A DNA stretch of 41,749 nt. Origin: Saprospiraceae bacterium (GTDB lineage Bacteria > Bacteroidota > Bacteroidia > Chitinophagales > Saprospiraceae). Below the pieces are notes generated by a model. It worked only from the letters and a program-made list of their open reading frames with translations. It had not been told where the DNA came from and ran no database searches. Numbering within the stretch: the first letter of the stretch is position 1; each line of letters begins with the position of its first letter. A program made the position numbers and the translations under genes. Shown here one piece after another: positions 6,563 to 41,561 of the stretch. The stretch covers positions 1 to 41,749 of the forward strand of contig JALHQW010000064.1 of assembly GCA_022841745.1 (NCBI GenBank). Direction: 5' to 3'.

Positions 6563-6601
6563 ACATACCTCCATACCTCATACCTCATACCTAATACCTC
6601 A
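6563..6601. repeat. Heptamer array between the M16 genes
   Basis: On the plus strand, ccatacc, tcatacc, tcatacc, taatacc and tcatta follow one another from 6571 with a period of 7. A further acatacc lies 1 base out of phase before them. The array ends at the stop codon of the active M16 gene (6602). A single complementary heptamer, GGTATGC at 6551-6557, can pair as GGTATG/CATACC, so the G-arm here is short. Confidence 0.75.
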
Positions 6602-7924
6602 TTAAGGTGTTTTCGGCTTTGGCAAATAGTAAAGCACCACCCGGTTGTCCTTGGTCAGGTACTTATTGGCCACCCGTTGGATATCCTCACGGGTCACCTT
6701 CATATAGCGCTCAATTTCCGTATTGATGAGGTTGGCTTCGCCAAAATAGGTGTGGTAATTGGCAAGGCTTTCGGCAATGCCCTGTACGGTGCTGTTCGTG
6801 GAAATGAAATCATTTTCCACTTGGTTGCGCAGCTTTTGGAACTCCGATTCGCTAATCAGTTCGTTCTGCACCTTCTGCACCTCGGCGTCCATGCTGGCTT
6901 CCACGTCCTTTGGGTCAACGCCTGCATTGCAGATGCCAAAGGCAATGCTGATGCCGGGGTCTTCCATCGAAAAGGGGAAACTGCCCACGACCACGGCCTT
7001 CTGCTGTTGGTCAACCAAAGCCTTGTGCAGCCGGGAGCTTTCACCCTGTGATAGCAGTTGTGAGAGCATTGTCACAGCATAAAAATCGGGAGTACCCTGC
7101 GCCGGAATGCGGTAGGTCTGGACAACTGCCGACAATTGCACATTGTCAAAAATGGTGTCCCGTACCTCGCCGCCGAGTGCTGGCTCCACAATTTTAGGGT
7201 GGAAAGGGTCTTGCTTTTTCGGAATGCCAGCGAAGTATTTTTCAATCAAAGCCTTTGCCTCGGCAATATTGATGTCGCCAGCAATGGAGAGCGTGGCGTT
7301 GTTTGGCACATAAAAATCAGCGTAAAACTGTTTGTAGTCGGCTTCCTGAGCCGCATCGAGGTGCTCCATGTACCCGATGGGCTGCCATTTGTAGGGGTGG
7401 TTGCGGTATGCACGTTTAAAAGATTCTTGCAGCACCGTCCCATAAGGCTGGTTGTCCACCCGCAGGCGACGCTCTTCCTTCACCACTTGGCGCTGCGTCT
7501 CGATGCCAATTTGCTCGACTTTTGCGTGCAGCATCCGCTCCGATTCGAGCCAGAGGCCGAGGCCCAGTTGGTTGGATGGCAGCACCTCAAAATAAAAGGT
7601 GCGGTCTTGTGTTGTGTTGGCGTTGTTGTAGCCGCCCGCCTCTTGGATGTAGTCGTCGAACTTGCCCCGTGCGATGTTCTCGGAGCCTTCAAAGAGCAGG
7701 TGCTCGAAGAAGTGGGCGAAGCCCGTGCGGTCGGGCTTCTCGTTCTTGGAGCCGACGTGGTACAGCACTGATACCGCCACAATGGGCGTAGAATGGTCTT
7801 CGTGGAGGATGACGTGCAACCCATTCGGCAGGTCGTACTCCGTGAAATTGATTTTGTTGGCTTGCGCAAATAGGCACACTGCGCCCATGATGAACAAGCT
7901 CATGGAAACAATTTTCTTAGTCAT
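6602..7924 (-). CDS. Active M16 family zinc metallopeptidase
   Basis: Periplasmic zinc peptidase, 440 residues, first gene of the M16 pair. The start at 7924 is chosen for the signal peptide (MTKKIVSMSLFIMG, ending LFAQ); the longer frame to 8044 adds an unlikely N-terminus. Zinc motif HFFEH is at residues 71-75 within GFAHFFEHLLFEGS. The distal glutamate probably lies in VVKEERRLRVDNQPYG. Both M16 half-domains are present with no further extension. The family cleaves short peptides inside a clam-shell chamber, and the second half comes partly from the partner subunit in heteromers. The neighbour that lacks the motif fits that role. The substrate is unknown; such pairs often degrade signal or transit-like peptides. 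Confidence 0.92.
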   Translation of the reverse strand: MTKKIVSMSLFIMGAVCLFAQANKINFTEYDLPNGLHVILHEDHSTPIVAVSVLYHVGSKNEKPDRTGFAHFFEHLLFEGSENIARGKFDDYIQEAGGYNNANTTQDRTFYFEVLPSNQLGLGLWLESERMLHAKVEQIGIETQRQVVKEERRLRVDNQPYGTVLQESFKRAYRNHPYKWQPIGYMEHLDAAQEADYKQFYADFYVPNNATLSIAGDINIAEAKALIEKYFAGIPKKQDPFHPKIVEPALGGEVRDTIFDNVQLSAVVQTYRIPAQGTPDFYAVTMLSQLLSQGESSRLHKALVDQQQKAVVVGSFPFSMEDPGISIAFGICNAGVDPKDVEASMDAEVQKVQNELISESEFQKLRNQVENDFISTNSTVQGIAESLANYHTYFGEANLINTEIERYMKVTREDIQRVANKYLTKDNRVVLYYLPKPKTP

Positions 7925-8130
7925 TGCTGATGCGTTAGATGATTTTTTCAATGAAAATAATTTGGTAATGAAGGCGAAGGTCGCTGTTATTAAGCGGTTC
8001 GCCATTGTCAAAAACTGCAAAAACGGTGCAAAGATGTAGTGCAAAATTCAGACCCGTCCAAGCTTTCGAGCAAATTGGTTGCCACATAGACAAAAGCAAA
8101 TCGTCAAAGGTTGTTTGAGGGTAACTCGAA

Positions 8131-10163: not shown

Positions 10164-10214
10164 AATCCGCAATCCGTATTTGTCATCCCCGAAGGGGACC
10201 TAATCCGAAATCGA
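10164..10214. repeat. Short heptamer units before xseA
   Basis: AATCCGC and AATCCGT (10164-10177), then AATCCGA and the partial AATCGA (10202-10214), abut the xseA ATG. A CCCC-GAA-GGGG hairpin (10187-10197) separates the two pairs. The AATCCGN unit is the complement of the unit found inside the metallo-hydrolase gene at 41.5 kb. Confidence 0.55.
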
Positions 10215-16109: not shown

Positions 16110-16270
16110 CAATGGTTCGTGAAGTTTTCGGGTTTTCGGGCCTAAGGTTGCGGTACAGTAGCCGTTTTTGAAAATATAGGTTGCTTTTCAACTTCGTCAA
16201 AAATGATTTACAGTTAGGTTTTGCCCCAAATCCCGAAAACCATAGAACCTTAAAACTTCACGAACCATTG
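16110..16270. repeat. Inverted repeat between DUF1599 and DoxX-like genes
   Basis: The 19 bases at 16110-16128 are perfectly inverted at 16252-16270. A second block (GGGTTTTCGGG against CCCGAAAACC at 16232-16241) extends the arms. The arms show a weak 7-base periodicity with G-rich phase on the left and C-rich on the right, like the stronger arrays nearby. Confidence 0.7.
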
Positions 16271-16317: not shown

Positions 16318-16866
16318 TCAACTTTTATCCATCTCTCCCAATAGAATCAGTGCAAAAATAGCATAGTTGGCAATGTCGGCATAGTTGGCGTCGAGGCCCT
16401 CGGAGGCCAGGGTTTTCCCCTTGTTTTCCTCGATTTGCCTGATGCGCAGCAATTTCATCAAAATCAAATCGGTGATGGAGCTGATGCGCATGTCACGCCA
16501 AGCCTCCCCATAATCATGGTTTTTGGCAATCATCAGGTTGCGCACGGCATCCACCTGCTTCTCGTAATGTTTACGGGCAACGGCAGGCTCAAGTTCCAAT
16601 TCTTCTTCTTCCTTTAGCTCCAATTGGATAAGTGCCATGTAGGCGTAGTTGACGAGGCCGATGAAATCGCCTTCGATGGAATCTTCCACCATTTGCTTCG
16701 CCTTTTCGTCAATGCTGCGGATGCGCTTGGCCTTGATGAAAAGCTGGTCGGTCAAGGATGAGGGCCGTAAGATGCGCCAAGCAGTGCCGTAGTCGTGCGT
16801 CTTTTTCAAGAAAAGGTCTTCGCACCGTTTTACCACTGTATCGTATTGTGCCAATGTTTTTTCCAC
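16318..16866 (-). CDS. DUF1599 protein with two internal repeats
   Basis: A 182-residue protein made of two copies of the DUF1599 domain (about 8-83 and 101-176). The copies are plainly homologous: KTHDYGTAWRILRPSSLTDQ against KNHDYGEAWRDMRISSITDL, each followed by an RIR-x-IEE helix and a NYA segment. I chose the GTG at 16866, just before the first repeat; the frame is open to a TTG at 16935, so the start is uncertain. Both repeats keep HDYGxAW, which looks like a metal or nucleotide-binding helix. An all-alpha NTP-pyrophosphatase-like fold is a guess. It is adjacent to the DoxX-like gene and in the same block as cdaA. The function is unknown. Confidence 0.8.
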   Translation of the reverse strand: MEKTLAQYDTVVKRCEDLFLKKTHDYGTAWRILRPSSLTDQLFIKAKRIRSIDEKAKQMVEDSIEGDFIGLVNYAYMALIQLELKEEEELELEPAVARKHYEKQVDAVRNLMIAKNHDYGEAWRDMRISSITDLILMKLLRIRQIEENKGKTLASEGLDANYADIANYAIFALILLGEMDKS

Positions 16867-16941
16867 AAGCTGTTTTATTGCGCTGCAAAAGTCTATAACA
16901 AAGCAAGTAATTGCTGTTAATGCCAGGTTAACCAAGGGTTA

Positions 16942-17115
16942 ACGGCTGACGGTGGACGATGGACGATAGACGGAAAACGGTAGACGCTTAAAGGTCTAAA
17001 AAGTTACTGACAGGTCACCGTCCATCGTAATCCGTTCACCGTTCACCGTTCACCGTCCATCGCCCATCGCCCACCGTCCACCGTCCATCGCCCACCGTCC
17101 ATCGTCCATCGTTAT
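16942..17115. repeat. Large heptamer array with inverted arms
   Basis: The left arm, 16942-16986, is six heptamers of ACGRnnG type (ACGGCTG, ACGGTGG, ACGATGG, ACGATAG, ACGGAAA, ACGGTAG). The right arm, 17018-17115, is fourteen consecutive heptamers of YCGTCCA type (CCGTCCA, TCGCCCA, CCGTTCA and variants) with no phase slips. The arms are complementary and separated by 31 bases. The right arm runs into the stop codon of the M20 gene. This is the clearest array in the window. Confidence 0.92.
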
Positions 17116-18530
17116 CCCTTCTTCAGTTCATTGTAAAAGGAGTAATAATAAGGTATGGTCTCAATGCCCTTATAATAGTTGAACAGGCCATAATGCTCGT
17201 TTGGCGAATGGATGGCGTCGCTATTGAGGCCAAAACCCATGAGCACGCTGTCCACGTCCAATACGTCCTTGAACAAGGAGACGATGGGGATATACCCGCC
17301 TTCCCGCTTTGGGATGGGTTCTTTTCCGAAAGTCTTTGCCAATGCTTTGTGGGCTGCCTGGTACTCAGGTGTGTTGGTAGGTGTGACGCCCGGTTCTCCG
17401 CCATGCATTCTGATGACTTTCACTTGTACCGATGGCGGGGCCAATGATTTGAAATGCGCCTCGAACAGGTCGTAAATCTTCTCGCAACGTTGATGGGGTA
17501 CCAGGCGCATGGAGATTTTGGCAAAGGCTTTTGAAGGCAAAACAGTTTTGGAACCCTCACCTGTATAGCCCCCCCAAATACCGTTACAGTCCAGGGAAGG
17601 GCGGATGCTGGTGCGCTCCGTAGTGGTGTAGCCTTTCTCGCCCTGTACATCACCAATGGCAAGGTCTTCCATGTAGTCGGCAAGGCTGAACGGGGCCTTG
17701 TTCATGGCCTCCCTGTCCTTTTTGCTTTCGTTCAGCACATCGTCGTAAAATCCTGGGATGGTGATTTTGCCGTTCTTGTCAATCAATTTGTCAATCATGC
17801 CCGCCAATACGTTGATGGGGTTGGCTACGCCCCCGCCATAGACGCCGGAGTGTAGGTCACGGTTCGGCCCGGTCACTTCCACTTGGAGGTATGCGAGGCC
17901 CCGGACGCCCGTCGTGATGCTGGGCACGTCGTTGGCGATGATGCTGGTATCGGAGCAGAGCACTACGTCACAAGCCAGCTTTTTCTTGTTTTTTTCAACA
18001 AAAGGCCGGAAACTGGGCGAGCCGACTTCCTCTTCCCCTTCTATGCAGAACTTGACGTTGCAGGGCAGGGTATTTGTTTTCACCATCGCCTCGAATGCCT
18101 TGATGTGCATATAGGCTTGGCCCTTGTCGTCGCAGGAGCCACGGGCGAAGATGGCCCCCTGCGGATGCACTTTCGTCTTTTTGATAACAGGCTCAAATGG
18201 CGGCGAGGTCCAAAGGTCGAGCGGGTCGGGCGGCTGCACATCGTAGTGGCCATAGACAAGCACAGTGGGCAGTTTTTTGTCAATGATTTTTTCGCCGTAG
18301 ATGACCGGGTAGCCCTCCTTTGACTTGCCGTCCTTCTTATGGGAGGTAGGGCAGATTTCTACTTTTTCCGCTCCTGCGTCACGAAGGCTTTGGGCAACAA
18401 CCTCAGCAGTACGTAGCACGTCATCCTTGTATTTGGGGTCGGCACTGATGGAAGGGATGCGGAGCAGTTCGAGCAGTTCGTCAAGGAAGCGTTGCTTATT
18501 TTTTGCGATAAAATCTTGTGCTGGTTTCAT
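17112..18530 (-). CDS. M20 family dipeptidase
   Basis: Cytosolic zinc dipeptidase of the M20 (CNDP-like) family, 472 residues, with no signal peptide. Metal ligands are visible: H in LVYGHYDVQPPDP, D in RGSCDDKGQ, the EE pair in CIEGEEEVGS, D in VLCSDTSI, and the late H in NSDAIHSPNEHYG. The lid/dimerisation domain (about 205-360) contains GPNRDLHSGVYGG, typical of this subgroup. It hydrolyses dipeptides, with broad specificity inferred. It lies between the DUF1599 gene and cdaA on the same strand. Both spacers hold heptamer arrays, so co-transcription is uncertain. Confidence 0.92.
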   Translation of the reverse strand: MKPAQDFIAKNKQRFLDELLELLRIPSISADPKYKDDVLRTAEVVAQSLRDAGAEKVEICPTSHKKDGKSKEGYPVIYGEKIIDKKLPTVLVYGHYDVQPPDPLDLWTSPPFEPVIKKTKVHPQGAIFARGSCDDKGQAYMHIKAFEAMVKTNTLPCNVKFCIEGEEEVGSPSFRPFVEKNKKKLACDVVLCSDTSIIANDVPSITTGVRGLAYLQVEVTGPNRDLHSGVYGGGVANPINVLAGMIDKLIDKNGKITIPGFYDDVLNESKKDREAMNKAPFSLADYMEDLAIGDVQGEKGYTTTERTSIRPSLDCNGIWGGYTGEGSKTVLPSKAFAKISMRLVPHQRCEKIYDLFEAHFKSLAPPSVQVKVIRMHGGEPGVTPTNTPEYQAAHKALAKTFGKEPIPKREGGYIPIVSLFKDVLDVDSVLMGFGLNSDAIHSPNEHYGLFNYYKGIETIPYYYSFYNELKKG

Positions 18531-18724: not shown

Positions 18725-18766
18725 CAAATCACGATACACCAATCACGACTCACCAGTAACCAATTA
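18725..18766. repeat. Heptamer array after cdaA
   Basis: Six heptamers, caaatca, cgataca, ccaatca, cgactca, ccagtaa and ccaatta, run without slip and stop 3 bases before the cdaA stop codon. A G-rich stretch at 18541-18580 (TTGGATAG, TTGAATTG, TTTGATTG) may be a degenerated left arm. It also contains GAATTGTT paired with AACAATTC at 18592-18599... a weak hairpin. Confidence 0.6.
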
Positions 18767-18769
18767 CAC

Positions 18770-19570
18770 CTACAACTGTTGCGACATGAGCAGTTCGGAA
18801 AGCCGCCCTTCGTTGATGCTAAATTCGATTTTGCCACCTTCTGCAAAACTAATGGCACCAGACTCTTCCGAGACGATAAAGGCAGAAGCGCCACTTCGCT
18901 CTGATACACCCAGTGCTGCCCTATGCCGAAGCCCTGCTTTGGCTGGTAGTTGGGCGCTATCGGAAAGGGGAAGGATACAACTGGCTGCCAGGATTTTTCC
19001 CTTGCCGATGACTACTGCCCCATCGTGTAGGGGGCTTTCTTTTTGGAAAATGCTCAGCAGCAAGGATTGGCTGATATTGGCATCCAGCCGAACGCCGGAT
19101 TGAAGTATTGACTCCATTTCAAAGCTTTGTGAGAAAACGACAAGTGCCCCGATTTTCTCTTTTGACATTCTCAGCAAAGCTTGCTTTACCTCAATATTTG
19201 ACACTTCGTTGATGGGCCGCTTGTCGAGGTTGCGGGTGAGCCAGCGTAGCATGACATCGGTGCGGCGGCCCAGGGTCGTATTGCCGAGCATCAGTAGGAA
19301 GCGGCGTACTTCTGGCTGAAAAATGATGATGATGATGATGAACCCCACATTAACAAACTGGCTCAGTATCATCGTAAGCATGTCCATTTTTAAGATACCT
19401 ACCAGCCACCATAACACGTATATAATGACAATGCCAATGAAAATATTGAAAGCGATGCTGCCCTTCAACAACAGGTAAACCCGGTAGATGAGGTAGCCAA
19501 CGATGGCCACATCCAGTATATCCCAAAGGCTCACAGGCAGAAACCCGATTTCAAAAAGAAAGGTCATCAA
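18770..19570 (-). CDS. cdaA: Diadenylate cyclase CdaA
   Basis: Membrane-bound c-di-AMP synthase, 266 residues. Three N-terminal membrane segments occupy about 15-85, ending in the typical FQPEVRRFL junction. The DAC catalytic domain (about 105-245) has the DGA motif at 183-185 in SPLHDGAVVIGKG and the RHR motif at 215-217 in GLRHRAALGVSE, with SGAISFAEGG beyond. All catalytic residues are intact. c-di-AMP controls osmolyte transport and cell-wall balance in other phyla and is widespread in Bacteroidota. In Bacteroidota the gene often follows folP, but folP is not seen here. Instead the divergent neighbour is miaE. Confidence 0.93.
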   Translation of the reverse strand: MMTFLFEIGFLPVSLWDILDVAIVGYLIYRVYLLLKGSIAFNIFIGIVIIYVLWWLVGILKMDMLTMILSQFVNVGFIIIIIIFQPEVRRFLLMLGNTTLGRRTDVMLRWLTRNLDKRPINEVSNIEVKQALLRMSKEKIGALVVFSQSFEMESILQSGVRLDANISQSLLLSIFQKESPLHDGAVVIGKGKILAASCILPLSDSAQLPAKAGLRHRAALGVSERSGASAFIVSEESGAISFAEGGKIEFSINEGRLSELLMSQQL

Positions 19571-28855: not shown

Positions 28856-29773
28856 ATGAAAAAGCTTATATATACCTTCTTCATTACCTTCATCAGCGTA
28901 TCGGCGTGGTCGCAAAGCGAGGCCATCTACACGTTCAACCTATTCAACCAGTTGAACTTCAACCCTGCCTACGCTGGCTCGAAAGATGTGCTGGACGCCG
29001 GCCTCATCTACCGAAACCAATGGTATTCGGGGATTGACGGCACGCCAAAGAACATCAACCTGTTTGGCCACATGCCCATCGCCAAGAACCGCAGCGGCAT
29101 CGGCCTCAATATTTTGAACGATAAAATCGGTCTGGACAAAATCCTGACGATAGCCGGGAATTACGCCTACAAAATCAAGTTCAACCGAGGTAATGTATTG
29201 GCCATTGGCCTCAATGCTAGGGTGGAAAATGCTCGCTCTGACTGGGGCGAAGCCAATGAAGCCGTTGAAACTGGCGATAGCGAAATTGGTGACGGTGTCG
29301 CTTCAAAGACCACTTTTAATGTAGGCCCCGGTGTCTTCTTCAAGAACAACAAGTTCTATATTGGAGCCTCCTTGCCAAGGATGTTGGCCAATTCGCTGTA
29401 CAACGACAAAAGCCTGTTCGGTGGCCAGGTAAACACTTGGTTCTTCCAAGGCGGGCTTGAGCTGCCTATTGGCCGCAACGTGGAGCTTTTACCGAATGTA
29501 CAAGTGCGCTACAATCCAAGTGCCCCCTTCGACTTCGATGCTAACCTGAATGTGATGTTCAATGACCGCATCATGGTAGGTGCCATGTACCGCTATGAAG
29601 ATGCCCTGAATGCACTCGTGGCTTACCAGTTCACCAATGGCCTCCGCCTTGGCGTGGCTTATGACTTTACCATTTCTGAACTCAAAAAAGCAACGGACGG
29701 GAGCTTCGAGCTGATGCTCGGCTATACGTTCCCCTGCGAGGACTGCACAATCAAGAGCCTCCGGTATTTTTGA
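28856..29773 (+). CDS. PorP/SprF family type IX secretion membrane protein
   Basis: Outer-membrane beta-barrel protein of 305 residues, with signal peptide ending AWSQ. The N-terminus YTFNLFNQLNFNPAYAGS is the family hallmark (NPAYAGS). Further strands include YRNQWYSGIDG, GIGLNILNDKIG and the end LGYTFPCED with two cysteines. PorP/SprF paralogues are encoded next to T9SS type B cargos and are needed to secrete or anchor that partner, so this one probably serves the adhesin 83 bases upstream. The gap to the next gene holds a heptamer hairpin, which may act in 3' end formation or processing. Annotated porP is generic here, so I give no symbol. Confidence 0.92.
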   Translation: MKKLIYTFFITFISVSAWSQSEAIYTFNLFNQLNFNPAYAGSKDVLDAGLIYRNQWYSGIDGTPKNINLFGHMPIAKNRSGIGLNILNDKIGLDKILTIAGNYAYKIKFNRGNVLAIGLNARVENARSDWGEANEAVETGDSEIGDGVASKTTFNVGPGVFFKNNKFYIGASLPRMLANSLYNDKSLFGGQVNTWFFQGGLELPIGRNVELLPNVQVRYNPSAPFDFDANLNVMFNDRIMVGAMYRYEDALNALVAYQFTNGLRLGVAYDFTISELKKATDGSFELMLGYTFPCEDCTIKSLRYF

Positions 29774-29874
29774 TGCTTGATATTGGATGTTGGATACTTG
29801 ATACTGGATTCTCGATACAGGTGAAGCATCCAGCATCCAGCATCTAGTATCCTGTATCCAGCATCCAACATCAT
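29774..29874. repeat. Heptamer hairpin between PorP and OmpA genes
   Basis: The left arm, 29774-29822, is seven heptamers of TRYTGGA type (TATTGGA, TGTTGGA, TACTTGA, TACTGGA and variants). The right arm, 29826-29874, is seven of GCATCCA type (GCATCCA, GCATCTA, GTATCCT, GTATCCA). Each arm is 49 bases with a 3-base gap and the arms are largely complementary. The left arm starts directly after the PorP stop codon. Confidence 0.92.
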
Positions 29875-38176: not shown

Positions 38177-38533
38177 ATGAAATACCTTTCCGGTTTCGCA
38201 TTTTTCATTTTTTGCTTCGCAAATTGCGCCCCCGATTTGGGCTACCAGGAAGCCATTCAAGGCAAATGGCAAGCCTTAAATTGGACAACCGACAGTGGTG
38301 AACCCCGCTCCGTAGAGAATGTTTTGTTTGATTTCAATGGCGAAGCCTACTCTGCAAAACTGGGCGCCCGGGACGAGGCAGGCAGCTTCCGACTCCAAGG
38401 CGACAAGCTCTACACAAAGGCTGAAGGCCAGCAGGAAATCATGGTGAAAATCAGCCAATTGACTGCTGATTCTTTGATATTTGAAATGAACCGGGGTGGG
38501 GTACATGAGGTTTTGACTTTGAAAAAAATGTGA
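38177..38533 (+). CDS. Small lipoprotein, lipocalin-like
   Basis: A 118-residue lipoprotein. ATG 38177 is chosen because it starts the signal sequence MKYLSGFAFFIFCFANC, with a lipobox cysteine at 17; the longer frame from 38132 adds a non-signal stretch. The mature part has WQALNWTTDSGEPRS, VLFDFNGEAYSAKLGARDEAG and LEMNRGG-like strand pattern, consistent with a small beta-barrel (lipocalin_4/DUF-like) fold. No ligand site is evident. Its stop codon TGA is the first three bases of a heptamer array. Confidence 0.72.
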   Translation: MKYLSGFAFFIFCFANCAPDLGYQEAIQGKWQALNWTTDSGEPRSVENVLFDFNGEAYSAKLGARDEAGSFRLQGDKLYTKAEGQQEIMVKISQLTADSLIFEMNRGGVHEVLTLKKM

Positions 38534-38755
38534 TTGGTGATTCGTGATTGGTGACTCGTCATTCGTGGGGCCAGACGCAGATGAGGGTTGTGCTGATTAA
38601 AATTGACGCAGTATTTTTGACGCTGAAAGACGCAGATTTTTTATGATTTTTTATGCTTTTCCACCTTCGGTTGAATGGGATACTTCAAAAAATGAATAAG
38701 TCTTCTACTACTTAGTCACGGATCACGAATCACCAATCACGATTCACGAATCACC
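38531..38755. repeat. Heptamer arms spanning the lipoprotein-fmt gap
   Basis: Left arm 38531-38565: TGATTGG, TGATTCG, TGATTGG, TGACTCG, TCATTCG, beginning with the lipoprotein stop codon. Right arm 38714-38755: AGTCACG, GATCACG, AATCACC, AATCACG, ATTCACG, AATCACC, ending 4 bases before the fmt ATG. The arms are complementary and separated by 148 bases. That gap has several GACGCAG/GACGCTG copies near 38574-38635 and a doubled TTTTTTATG. Confidence 0.9.
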
Positions 38756-38759
38756 AACC

Positions 38760-39728
38760 ATGCGCATCATTTTCTTGGGCACGCCCGATTTCGCCGTGCC
38801 TTCTTTGCAAATATTGTTGGACAATGGCTACGAGGTGGCTGCTGTCGTCACTGCCACCGACAAGCTGGGGGGTAGGGGAGGCAAGCAGTTGCTGGAATCG
38901 GCGGTGAAGAAATTCGCCATGAGCCGAGGGCTGCCCGTACTGCAACCGGAGAAGTTGCGAGACCCTGTTTTTTTGGAAGCATTGCGAAGCTACAATGCTG
39001 ATTTACAAGTGATTGTGGCATTCCGCATGTTGCCAGAGGTGGTTTGGGCGATGCCCAAAATCGGCACTTTCAACCTTCACGGCTCCTTGTTGCCTAAGTA
39101 CAGAGGCGCTGCCCCCATCAATTGGGCAATCATCAACGGCGAGCAAGAAACGGGCGTCACCACTTTTTTCCTACAGCATGAAATTGACACTGGCGATCTG
39201 CTCTTCCAGGCCCATTTGCCTATCGGCGAAGATGAGACAGCGGGCGAGGTGCATGACCGAATGATGCTGCTCGGTGCCGACCTCGTGCTGAAAACGGTGC
39301 AGTCCATTGAAAGGGGCGGTGTTGCAAAGCAAAAACAAGACGACTCGCTTGCTTGCCATGCCCCGAAGATTTTCCATGAAACTTGTGAGATTGATTTTTC
39401 GAAAAAGGCTGCCGAAGTTCACAACTTCGTTCGAGGCCTCAGCCCATACCCCGGCGCCTGGAAGGTGGTGGCCGCACCTTTGACCTTGGCGGATGGAACG
39501 CCTTGGCAATCGGCTAATTGGGAGGCGGCACAAGGAACTGAGTTGAAGGTTTTCAAGACCCAAAAAGAACCGGCCATACATGATTTGCCTATAGGGCAGT
39601 TTATCACTGATGGGAAAAAAACGCTGAAGGTAGCCCTAGCTGATGGTTTCTTGCATTTGCTGGAACTTCAATTACAAGGCCGGAAACGGCTTTCAACAGT
39701 GGATTTCCTGAACGGAATGAAATCTTGA
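38760..39728 (+). CDS. fmt: Methionyl-tRNA formyltransferase
   Basis: Formylates the initiator Met-tRNA using 10-formyl-tetrahydrofolate; cytosolic, 322 residues. The start MRIIFLGTPDFAVPSLQ is typical. The catalytic residues are N105 and H107 in FNLHGSLLPKYRGAAP and D143 in HEIDTGD. The C-terminal tRNA-binding beta-barrel (about 205-322) contains RGLSPYPGAWKV. Its immediate 5' region is the right arm of a heptamer array instead of a conventional leader, so translation must start within a potential hairpin. Confidence 0.95.
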   Translation: MRIIFLGTPDFAVPSLQILLDNGYEVAAVVTATDKLGGRGGKQLLESAVKKFAMSRGLPVLQPEKLRDPVFLEALRSYNADLQVIVAFRMLPEVVWAMPKIGTFNLHGSLLPKYRGAAPINWAIINGEQETGVTTFFLQHEIDTGDLLFQAHLPIGEDETAGEVHDRMMLLGADLVLKTVQSIERGGVAKQKQDDSLACHAPKIFHETCEIDFSKKAAEVHNFVRGLSPYPGAWKVVAAPLTLADGTPWQSANWEAAQGTELKVFKTQKEPAIHDLPIGQFITDGKKTLKVALADGFLHLLELQLQGRKRLSTVDFLNGMKS

Positions 39729-40670: not shown

Positions 40671-41561
40671 TCACAAAACGTCAAATCGCTCCTTGACAGC
40701 GACCCTTCCATTTTCGTTGCGCACTAGGCTGGCACAGGCAGTCTGTGGGTCGTGCTCGAAAATCAGCCGCCAATCGTTGTCCACGGCATTTTCCAACAAC
40801 CAAGCTTTTTCCTCCAAAGTCGCCAAGGGCCTAATATCGTAGGCCATCACCCAGGGCATGTTCAGGTGGTAGGTGGCGGGCATGGTATCTGCACAATAAA
40901 CGTATTTCCCATTAGCTGCATCAATGTGTAGCATCATCATCGCATCGGTGTGGCCATGGGTAAACTGCACCTTTAGCCCCGGCATCCATTCCAGCATATC
41001 CCGCTGTACATCAATGAATTGTACCCGCCCAGCTTCTTTTAGGGGCAGAAAATTTTCCTTCAAAAAAGAGGCTTTTTCCTTTTCGTTTGGCGCCATTGCC
41101 GTGCGCCACTGTACCTCGTTCGACCAATAGGTGGCATTGGGGAAGGTAGGCGCTAAGTTGCCGTTAGCATCTAAGCTTACGCCTCCTCCGCAATGGTCAA
41201 AGTGCAGGTGGGTGAGGAACACATCCGTGATTTCTTCAGGGGAAATTTTGCGTTCTGACAAAGCAGGTAGGGGCGACACTGGCCCCGTTGGCTCGAAAAA
41301 ACTGCGCCATTTTGCATCCTGCTTGTCGCCGATGCTGCAATCCACGAGGATTTTTCGGTCGCCCGTCTCAATGAGCAAGCAGCGCAAGGCCCAAGTGCAA
41401 AGGTTGTTCTCATCGGCAGGGTTGACCTTGTTCCAGAGGCGCTTGGGCACAATGCCGAACATGGCACCGCCGTCCAGCTTGAAAGTGCCGGTAGGGAGCA
41501 GGGAAATGCGGATTTCGGATTTAGGATTTCGGATTGTGGCAGTACCTGCTTCGTTTGTCAT
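40671..41561 (-). CDS. Metallo-beta-lactamase-fold hydrolase
   Basis: A 296-residue hydrolase with two-metal site THLHFDHCGGG (HxHxDH) and further ligands in QFTHGHTD and YVYCADTMPATYHL. The domain resembles lactonase/Zn-hydrolase members with the start TGTFKLDGGAMFGIVPK. I chose ATG 41561. Residues 10-18 (IRNPKSEIR) are encoded by four heptamers (41509-41536), so the first about 20 residues are not part of the family. The frame is open further upstream to 41681, where the sequence is again repeat or IS. The substrate is unknown; quorum-lactone or other ester substrates are possible. Confidence 0.85.
   Translation of the reverse strand: MTNEAGTATIRNPKSEIRISLLPTGTFKLDGGAMFGIVPKRLWNKVNPADENNLCTWALRCLLIETGDRKILVDCSIGDKQDAKWRSFFEPTGPVSPLPALSERKISPEEITDVFLTHLHFDHCGGGVSLDANGNLAPTFPNATYWSNEVQWRTAMAPNEKEKASFLKENFLPLKEAGRVQFIDVQRDMLEWMPGLKVQFTHGHTDAMMMLHIDAANGKYVYCADTMPATYHLNMPWVMAYDIRPLATLEEKAWLLENAVDNDWRLIFEHDPQTACASLVRNENGRVAVKERFDVL
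41509..41536. repeat. Heptamer array inside the hydrolase coding sequence
   Basis: CGGATTT, CGGATTT, AGGATTT and CGGATTG run without slip on the plus strand, within the N-terminal codons of the minus-strand gene. The same AATCCGN unit (on the other strand) occurs before xseA. Confidence 0.85.

Follow-up and report, generated by a model that had tools for sequence, protein, structure and literature searches.

Between a minus-strand M20 peptidase gene (17112-18530) and a DUF1599 gene (16318-16866, or with its end at 16935 if the earlier start is used), an uncultivated Saprospiraceae bacterium carries a spacer composed of two complementary arrays of seven-base units. The spacer lies in what we refer to as the window, the whole stretch of DNA analysed here, which is one whole contig of 41,749 nucleotides. 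Its features are as follows:

16942..16986, unstranded: G-rich arm of six ACGRNNR heptamers and one partial heptamer.
16987..17015, unstranded: inter-arm loop, about 30 bases that separate the two arms.
17016..17113, unstranded: C-rich arm of fourteen consecutive YCGTCCA-type heptamers that reach the stop codon at the end of the M20 peptidase gene (minus strand).

In the order of the transcribed strand, the message of this locus runs from the stop codon into the G-rich arm, through the loop and on to the C-rich arm. A first-pass annotation had described six G-rich and fourteen complementary C-rich heptamers here, and both the letters and a lag-7 scan bear this out, at 16942-17113. In the best window of 91 comparisons in the spacer, 72 match at lag 7, against a maximum of 41 among 500 Markov shuffles. 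The predicted RNA fold of the spacer, at -86.4 kcal/mol, is much stronger than that of its shuffles (-60.6 kcal/mol, sd 4.0; z -6.5).

Further heptamer arrays lie elsewhere in the window:

6563..6602, unstranded: CATACCT array, directly 3' of the stop codon of a minus-strand M16 peptidase gene (6602-8005).
10164..10214, unstranded: CAATCCG heptamers flanking a second dispersed block, immediately 5' of the exonuclease VII large-subunit gene (10215).
18727..18769, unstranded: TCACGAA-type array adjoining the stop codon of a minus-strand DAC-domain gene (18770-19567).
29770..29816, unstranded: G-rich arm of GGATACT type, overlapping the stop codon of a PorP/SprF gene.
29825..29872, unstranded: C-rich arm of CATCCAG type, 20 nt 5' of the next start codon.
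38530..38566, unstranded: G-rich arm, GTGATTC/GGTGATT; the upstream ORF has its TGA stop within the overlap with this arm.
38716..38760, unstranded: C-rich arm, TCACGAA, ending at the ATG of an fmt-like gene; the spacer is 226 nt.
41509..41535, unstranded: CGGATTT array within the N-terminus of a predicted minus-strand gene (40671-41561), with the C-rich strand coding and giving the peptide TIRNPKSEIR.

The recurrences of the design that the first-pass annotation had placed at 6563, 29774 and 38531 were recovered by TRF and by a period-7 scan, and the one at 18725 was recovered at period 14. Its three weaker members had mixed fates. The array at 41509 is genuine and sits near the N-terminus of a predicted gene rather than in a spacer; the one at 10164 amounts to three heptamers, two of them CAATCCG and one a variant, set around another dispersed block; and the one at 16110 proved to be a direct repeat with an 8-base unit in about two copies, the membership of which is unsupported. 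The locus at 29770-29872 has a strong predicted RNA fold (z -7.05), and for the array at 6563..6602 no partner arm was detected within 400 bp at the threshold used, though about one heptamer is visible by eye. A lag scan of the window at a strict threshold returned eight places at lag 7, seven at lag 14 (harmonics of the former), one each at lags 6 and 10, and none at the remaining lags from 4 to 13. An Rfam search of the window at the gathering threshold yielded one tRNA and no other curated family, and a Pfam search of 20 window proteins returned ordinary neighbour genes alone.

Our sample of this genome (G000) comprises 40 stretches and the window, 835,115 bases in all, of an 8.43-Mb genome. 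Some of these stretches come from contigs chosen beforehand and some congener stretches come from known matches, and because of this choice the array densities cannot be taken as unbiased for the genome. Gene calls come from our own codon-score script, for which starts are less certain than stops, and fmt, greA, hit, etfA, etfB, fabD, ychF, E1 and NRPS/PKS are putative names given on the basis of sequence. The sample contains 104 period-7 arrays, in comparison to none in five Markov shuffles, together with 30 arrays of period 8, 14 of period 6 and four of period 9. Only 21 of the 104 period-7 arrays lie inside predicted genes, even though coding calls cover 85% of the sample. The excess over shuffled sequence for which the first-pass annotation had advised looking is thus present, and it is found mainly outside genes. 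Greedy clustering at one mismatch sorts the 104 arrays into 19 families, the largest of which are ATTGCGG, ACGGTGG, ATTCGTG, AGGGATG and ATGCTGG. A GGG run, of the kind able to form quadruplexes, is present in the consensus of just 10 of the 104 arrays, and GG is absent altogether from 37. Cyanobacterial STRRs are degenerate tandem heptamers in spacers, and inverted arms are not known to belong to their definition; the arrays reported here resemble them in being tandem seven-base units that occur in excess and mainly outside genes. Eight- and nine-base units of the same design were also seen by eye, at L119 (G005) and L117 (G002) after the M20 peptidase and at L288 (G008) before ychF.

The arrays keep close to the borders of genes. 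Among the 78 that lie between two predicted genes, 61 are no more than 15 nt from a gene edge. Where a spacer offers 100 nt of room or more, 32 of 47 arrays are this close, in comparison to 7.3 (sd 2.4) under uniform placement. By eye, the stop codon is often inside the first heptamer. Orientation at these edges is also constrained, with the G-rich strand pointing outward (outward-G) in 58 of the 61 arrays, divided as 29 of 30 before starts and 29 of 31 after stops. Period-8 arrays near edges behave alike (11/11 at stops and 3/3 at starts). Families that lack GG are outward-G in 25 of 26 cases near an edge and therefore obey the same geometry, so quadruplexes cannot be its general cause. Unpaired arrays before starts all have this leader orientation (16/16), and two of the three exceptions to the rule are unpaired arrays at stops. 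A start codon (ATG, GTG or TTG) is present in 74 of the 104 G-strand heptamers but in only four of the 104 C-strand heptamers, and because the G strand carries these codons, the outward-G orientation before starts is expected from selection on translation. Stop-codon supply was rejected as the cause of the geometry, as it is inapplicable before starts and 42 of the 104 G-strand heptamers hold a stop.

The motif TAnnTTTG serves as a promoter element in Bacteroidota. It is present in the spacers of 12 of the 30 start-adjacent arrays and in 123 of 349 array-free spacers. In those 12 it lies 5' of the array in 11 and overlaps it in one; it never falls between array and start, and many start-adjacent arrays are therefore probably in transcribed leaders. 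Upstream of ychF a TTTG promoter-like block is kept in 10 of 11 regions (by eye), and arrays lie between this block and the start in G000, G011, G004, G007 and G012, with a period-9 repeat in G008.

The orientation rule was followed into two further samples. Twenty congener stretches (333,488 bases) contain 55 arrays in 15 stretches; near starts all ten are outward-G, and near stops nine are outward-G, one is outward-C and two are ties. Among named genomes, the best matches to the M20 peptidase (80 of 563) come from Saprospiraceae and other Bacteroidota and are nearly all metagenome-assembled. A sample of 80 named loci (1.217 Mb), of which three are from congeners and without arrays and the others are from more distant organisms, contains 38 arrays in 20 loci, outward-G in seven of seven cases near starts and divided near stops into six outward-G versus eight outward-C. 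Within these samples the rule therefore holds throughout before starts, and after stops it depends on the genome. The outward-G orientation after stops, which is absent in the distant relatives, may be a property of the families found here. C-outward arrays at stops (AATGTCC, GAACATC and the like), opposite to the arrangement in this genome, were seen at L070, L084, L091 and L097, from distant Saprospiraceae and Chitinophagales.

At the threshold used, a partner arm within 400 bp was detected for 55 of the 104 arrays and went undetected for the other 49. The G-rich arm comes first in 52 of the 55 paired arrays and the C-rich arm in two, with one tie. It had been claimed that the G-rich arm comes first on either strand; the second half of this statement is automatic for one inverted pair, because its reverse complement reads the same, and the bias of G-first over C-first is real. 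Inverted repeats scoring at least 16 are found in 107 of 371 spacers of 30-450 nt, in comparison to two in shuffles. Where such a repeat contains a period-7 array, the G-rich arm leads in 30 of 33 cases; among the 74 that lack one, 52 are G-first, 20 are C-first and two are ties. We use the G-first wording because a purine-first description of the array-bearing repeats is weaker (22/33 versus 30/33). The two arms are also mostly drawn from the same family. G-then-C array pairs agree in 14 of 20 cases at one mismatch and in 19 of 20 at two, against 11.3% agreement at one mismatch between loci. Pairs of out-of-gene arrays belong to one family (one mismatch) in 14 of 19 cases when no gene lies between them, versus one of 28 across one gene; with in-gene arrays included, the counts are 20 of 41 without an intervening gene versus one of 35 across one gene. 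The latter count, below a background of 10%, led us to reject the pairing of 5' and 3' arms around one gene, as in a circularised mRNA. Arrays occupy both edges of one spacer in 10 of 387 spacers, in comparison to 2.4 expected, and this excess, in combination with the one-family pairs, upholds the initial description, in which an inverted heptamer element recurs in spacers and is specific to each locus.

The agreement between arms does not extend below the level of the family. Same-family arms are no more alike within a locus (0.886, n=14) than across loci (0.884, n=43), and no register between the arms is singled out, as several fit about equally well. The covariation of opposite arms that the first-pass annotation had proposed as a check is accordingly missing, and its statement that arms stay complementary while individual heptamers vary holds for the heptamer family and fails for variants and register. 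Because variants and register are uncoupled, the arms represent a common word without a history of matched changes; mirror-copied arms were rejected on the same grounds. Two arms of one family, sometimes placed around unrelated sequence, fit joint insertion, hairpin-templated copying and selection on the fold alike. We give little credence to a dedicated copying process that rebuilds complementary arms at gene borders from a genome-wide heptamer lexicon, such that the fold is inherited and the sequence swapped. In one example of such a process, both 3' ends of a broken spacer would be extended with the same G-rich heptamer, in the fashion of telomeres, and then rejoined. If true, this would yield inverted pairs in which the G-rich arm leads and both arms are of one family but differ in their variants, placed right beside coding sequence.

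Orthologous spacers were compared in 10-14 genomes each, not always all 14, with several of the readings made by eye. Upstream of the fmt-like gene, the spacer of 226 nt with TCACGAA arms in G000 corresponds, by eye, to 4 nt in G004, 8 nt in G001 and 12 nt in G011, to about 100 nt in G007, where a different hairpin stands, and to 30-50 nt without arms in G013 and G008; in G012 an AACTCGA-type run precedes the start and the upstream gene is a different one. The greA-hit spacer has a terminator-like core common to G000, G011, G006, G013 and G001, around which AAAGTAC arms stand in G000. Unrelated families occupy this spacer in G008 (CGGATTG), G004 (GGAAAAT) and G012 (GACGGTG), G009 has 14 nt without an array, and other genomes have other short hairpins or no clear hairpin. 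Upstream of fabD, where the upstream gene differs among some genomes, we found CGGATTG in G000, G001 and G013, an AAATTAG-type family in G009, ACGGTTG in G010 and another repetitive hairpin in G007; six others are without an array by eye, with G002 flagged at a looser threshold. Three further sites were read by eye. Downstream of the M16 peptidase (12 genomes), runs of different words begin at the stop in G000 and G011 and a short run lies further down in G010. In congeners the M20 peptidase is followed by other hairpins, by an 8-base array (in G005) or by neither. Between etfB and etfA, in 30 of the 58 genomes within the family that have a match, arrays beyond that of G000 are present in G063 (period 7) and G043 (period 8) alone. 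Conserved genes of congeners are flanked by different heptamer families, by other hairpins or by nothing, and heptamer hairpins are frequent but replaceable. The presence of a different word in the same gap across species may mean that the fold outlives its sequence. Family turnover in which both arms are of one word in several species represents a natural experiment, as either the fold is selected or the arms are made as pairs.

This bears on one possible, though not probable, account, in which the arrays are functional inter-cistron RNA hairpins, placed after a stop or before a start, that protect 3' ends, limit read-through or insulate translation. The stem would be selected and its sequence left free, such that families are exchanged without loss of the fold. 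Predicted folds are indeed strong in seven hand-picked spacers (z -6.5 to -9.3), and the halves of a spacer match better within their own species than across species, with means of 11.1 versus 6.5 (shuffled 5.6) at greA-hit in 14 species, 12.0 versus 8.0 (shuffled 6.9) upstream of fabD in 12 species, and 9.4 versus 6.9 (shuffled 6.3) upstream of ychF in 11 species. The clearest cases are G008 (14 versus a best of 8) and G012 (14 versus 8) at greA-hit and G010 (29 versus 9) at fabD. At greA-hit the own partner beats the arm of any other species in G008, G012, G004 and G011, though genomes that share the core (G000, G006, G013 and G001) often cross-match better than they self-match, as expected from a common core. 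The ten spacers with both edges occupied, where 2.4 are expected, point the same way, as does the position of TAnnTTTG 5' of the array in 11 of 12 cases, which places many arrays probably in the transcribed leader. Spacers that combine an array with a strong inverted repeat lean toward 3' ends (9/65 convergent, 21/238 tandem and 3/68 divergent), whereas array-bearing spacers overall have no clear 3'-end bias (48/238 tandem, 9/65 convergent and 10/68 divergent). In addition, 49 of the 104 arrays are without a detected partner within 400 bp, some orthologous spacers of 4-14 nt do without arrays, no clear T-run is associated with the arms, and variants do not covary, all of which argue against a hairpin maintained for its function.

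A number of arrays are associated with dispersed sequence. A 24-nt block that is often joined to CAATCCG arrays occurs, at up to two mismatches, in 10 copies in G000, 11 in G006 and four in three other congeners, with 0 matches to a reversed control of its pattern, and by eye 23 of the 25 copies are beside CAATCCG-type heptamers. A second block, TTGTCATCCCCGAAGGGGACCTAATCCG, at 10180-10207 of the window beside the CAATCCG heptamers before the exonuclease VII gene, has nine matches at up to five mismatches among the loci analysed, itself counted, with no control for this number. One TCACGAA loop holds a repeat common to other loci, and most other loops are unrelated within the sample. A GACGCAG-rich dispersed repeat was seen at 38600-38680 of the window, in the loop before the fmt-like gene, and at L138:17652-17729, L027:12631-12694 and L026:13707-13754.

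We consider it unlikely that the arrays are the terminal inverted repeats of miniature elements moved by a transposase, for example of the Y1 (IS200/RAYT-like) type. Such elements would account for arms at both outer ends and for a dispersed composite block beside CAATCCG arrays. The filled spacer upstream of the fmt-like gene, set against the short spacers of relatives, also presents the contrast of insertion and empty site that is a trait of MITE and REP-RAYT elements. Matches to Y1_Tnp occur in 12 of the 14 genus genomes, with nine matches in G000, and nothing links them to the arrays. The families have no visible common motif, however, many of the insertions consist of one array, about 30 nt long and within a linker, and most loops share nothing outside the heptamers with the 835-kb sample. 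The last of these results led us to reject a whole-element transposon with a common core.

We regard the enlargement by slippage of ordinary bidirectional intrinsic terminators as highly improbable. The AAAGGCAAAAGT...ACTTTTGCCTTTTT hairpin that four congeners have in the greA-hit spacer is also the core of the AAAGTAC-armed hairpin of G000, and long inverted repeats without period 7 in this genome favour convergent spacers (26/65 versus 6/68 divergent). At L009 and L028, on the other hand, a canonical terminator-like hairpin sits between the arms (by eye), and the 16 unpaired arrays before starts are all in leader orientation. A T-run (at least six T in 10 nt) is present 3' of the arms in five of 57 cases (8.8%), in comparison to a background of 4.0%, with a mean of 2.95 versus 2.57 T. 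As there is no clear T-run after the arms, identity with intrinsic terminators was rejected.

Of the published systems compared here, two come nearest to these arrays: the Xanthomonas and Nostoc heptamers (PMC4692102) and the P6b stem with its switches of class (PMC4476775). The tandem heptamers GGGAATC and GGGGA(C/T)T of Xanthomonas and Nostoc lie mostly in spacers, and inverted neighbouring pairs number 70 and 75 in two Xanthomonas genomes (Rehm et al. 2015, PMC4692102). In both organisms the G-rich sequence falls on the coding strand downstream of stops and on the non-coding strand upstream of starts, mostly at 0-50 bp, and the heptamers overlap stop codons and scatter over gene classes, with their function left open in that report (PMC4692102). 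The outward-G geometry of our arrays at starts and stops (58/61) is alike, though it fails at stops in distant relatives. The repeats studied there are one G-rich family per genome with a quadruplex reading, unlike the 19 families in one sample, GG-less families, single family per spacer, family turnover and in-frame linker copies described here (PMC4692102). A geometry earlier described for single quadruplex-capable G-rich heptamers thus extends to families without GG.

The P6b stem of the cyanobacterial tRNA-Leu(UAA) intron (Nostoc) is built from heptamers of two interchangeable classes, with class shifts that recur while the fold stays similar and indels of one or two units; it is one intron site, in contrast to the many spacers, many families and lack of a host RNA here (PMC4476775). 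Beggiatoaceae, cyanobacteria and five Bacteroidetes have direct repeats of TAACTGA a few nt before starts; in Flexibacter litoralis a set in reverse orientation immediately follows a stop codon, and indels between two Cyanothece strains are mostly in steps of seven. That system differs from ours in having one heptamer, inverted pairs in one of 170 sets in the main genome and mixed pre-start orientation in one cyanobacterial sample (PMC4679880). Geobacter metallireducens has tandem seven- and eight-base units between and within genes, several classes of which are mostly opposite-strand pairs, but these are a few fixed families, interpreted there as regulator binding sites or regulatory RNA elements (PMC2700814). 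The first-pass annotation had held an inverted-arm version in Bacteroidota to be unfamiliar, and this remark has to be set in context. Inverted pairs and edge geometry are published for Xanthomonas (the geometry also for Nostoc; PMC4692102), class-switching stems for the P6b intron element (PMC4476775) and arrays before start codons for five Bacteroidetes among others (PMC4679880). In the open-access literature searched, we found no description of a multi-family, edge-bound, spacer-specific heptamer system with family turnover in Bacteroidota.

The explanation we favor, at a probability of roughly 50%, is that the arrays are STRR-like repeats of many families, with units of seven or, less often, eight bases, and that they enter and grow in permissive places. 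These places would be the untranslated RNA beside stop and start codons, in leaders and trailers, and linkers inside proteins. Short runs may be copied from a genome-wide pool of families through ectopic copying or template switching, sometimes bringing a short hairpin block along, and would then lengthen through slipped-strand copying. The second arm may be inserted together with the first or be templated from it through a hairpin, with later slippage scrambling the variants between the arms. Orientation before starts and inside genes would be set by selection on translation. The resulting RNA hairpin could alter the expression of neighbours, though at the sites compared it appears replaceable and not required. 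Certain results are in tension with this explanation. The outward-G orientation of 29 of 31 arrays after stops is unexplained by start-codon avoidance, and both the edge hugging in long spacers and the same-family arms around a terminator-like hairpin (L009 and L028) speak against simple neutral spread. The comparison, which was between species, turned up neither an insertion enzyme nor a target duplication nor a recent event of copying.

Arrays inside genes also bear on this entry-and-growth explanation, and they count against it in that those of congeners and relatives are not mainly C-coding. The 21 in-gene arrays of this genome have the C strand coding in 16, the G strand coding in four and one tie, and three of the four G-strand coding arrays have a stop codon in the printed frame. 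The congeners have six C versus eight G and the named relatives three C versus four G, with no C bias in either. Several in-gene arrays are in apparent linkers. One example is a fused 2-oxoacid dehydrogenase E1-like protein, in the alpha-beta linker of which NPQSAIRNPQS-type peptides are found by eye in five of thirteen genus sequences, this genome included. Through such in-frame copies, heptamer repeats add peptides such as NPQSAIRNPQS to conserved proteins. The number of units appears by eye to vary between species in the arrays 5' of ychF and in one megasynthase linker. A hybrid NRPS/PKS-like megasynthase at L016:12067-19998 contains six internal C-strand heptamer arrays, which belong to several families.
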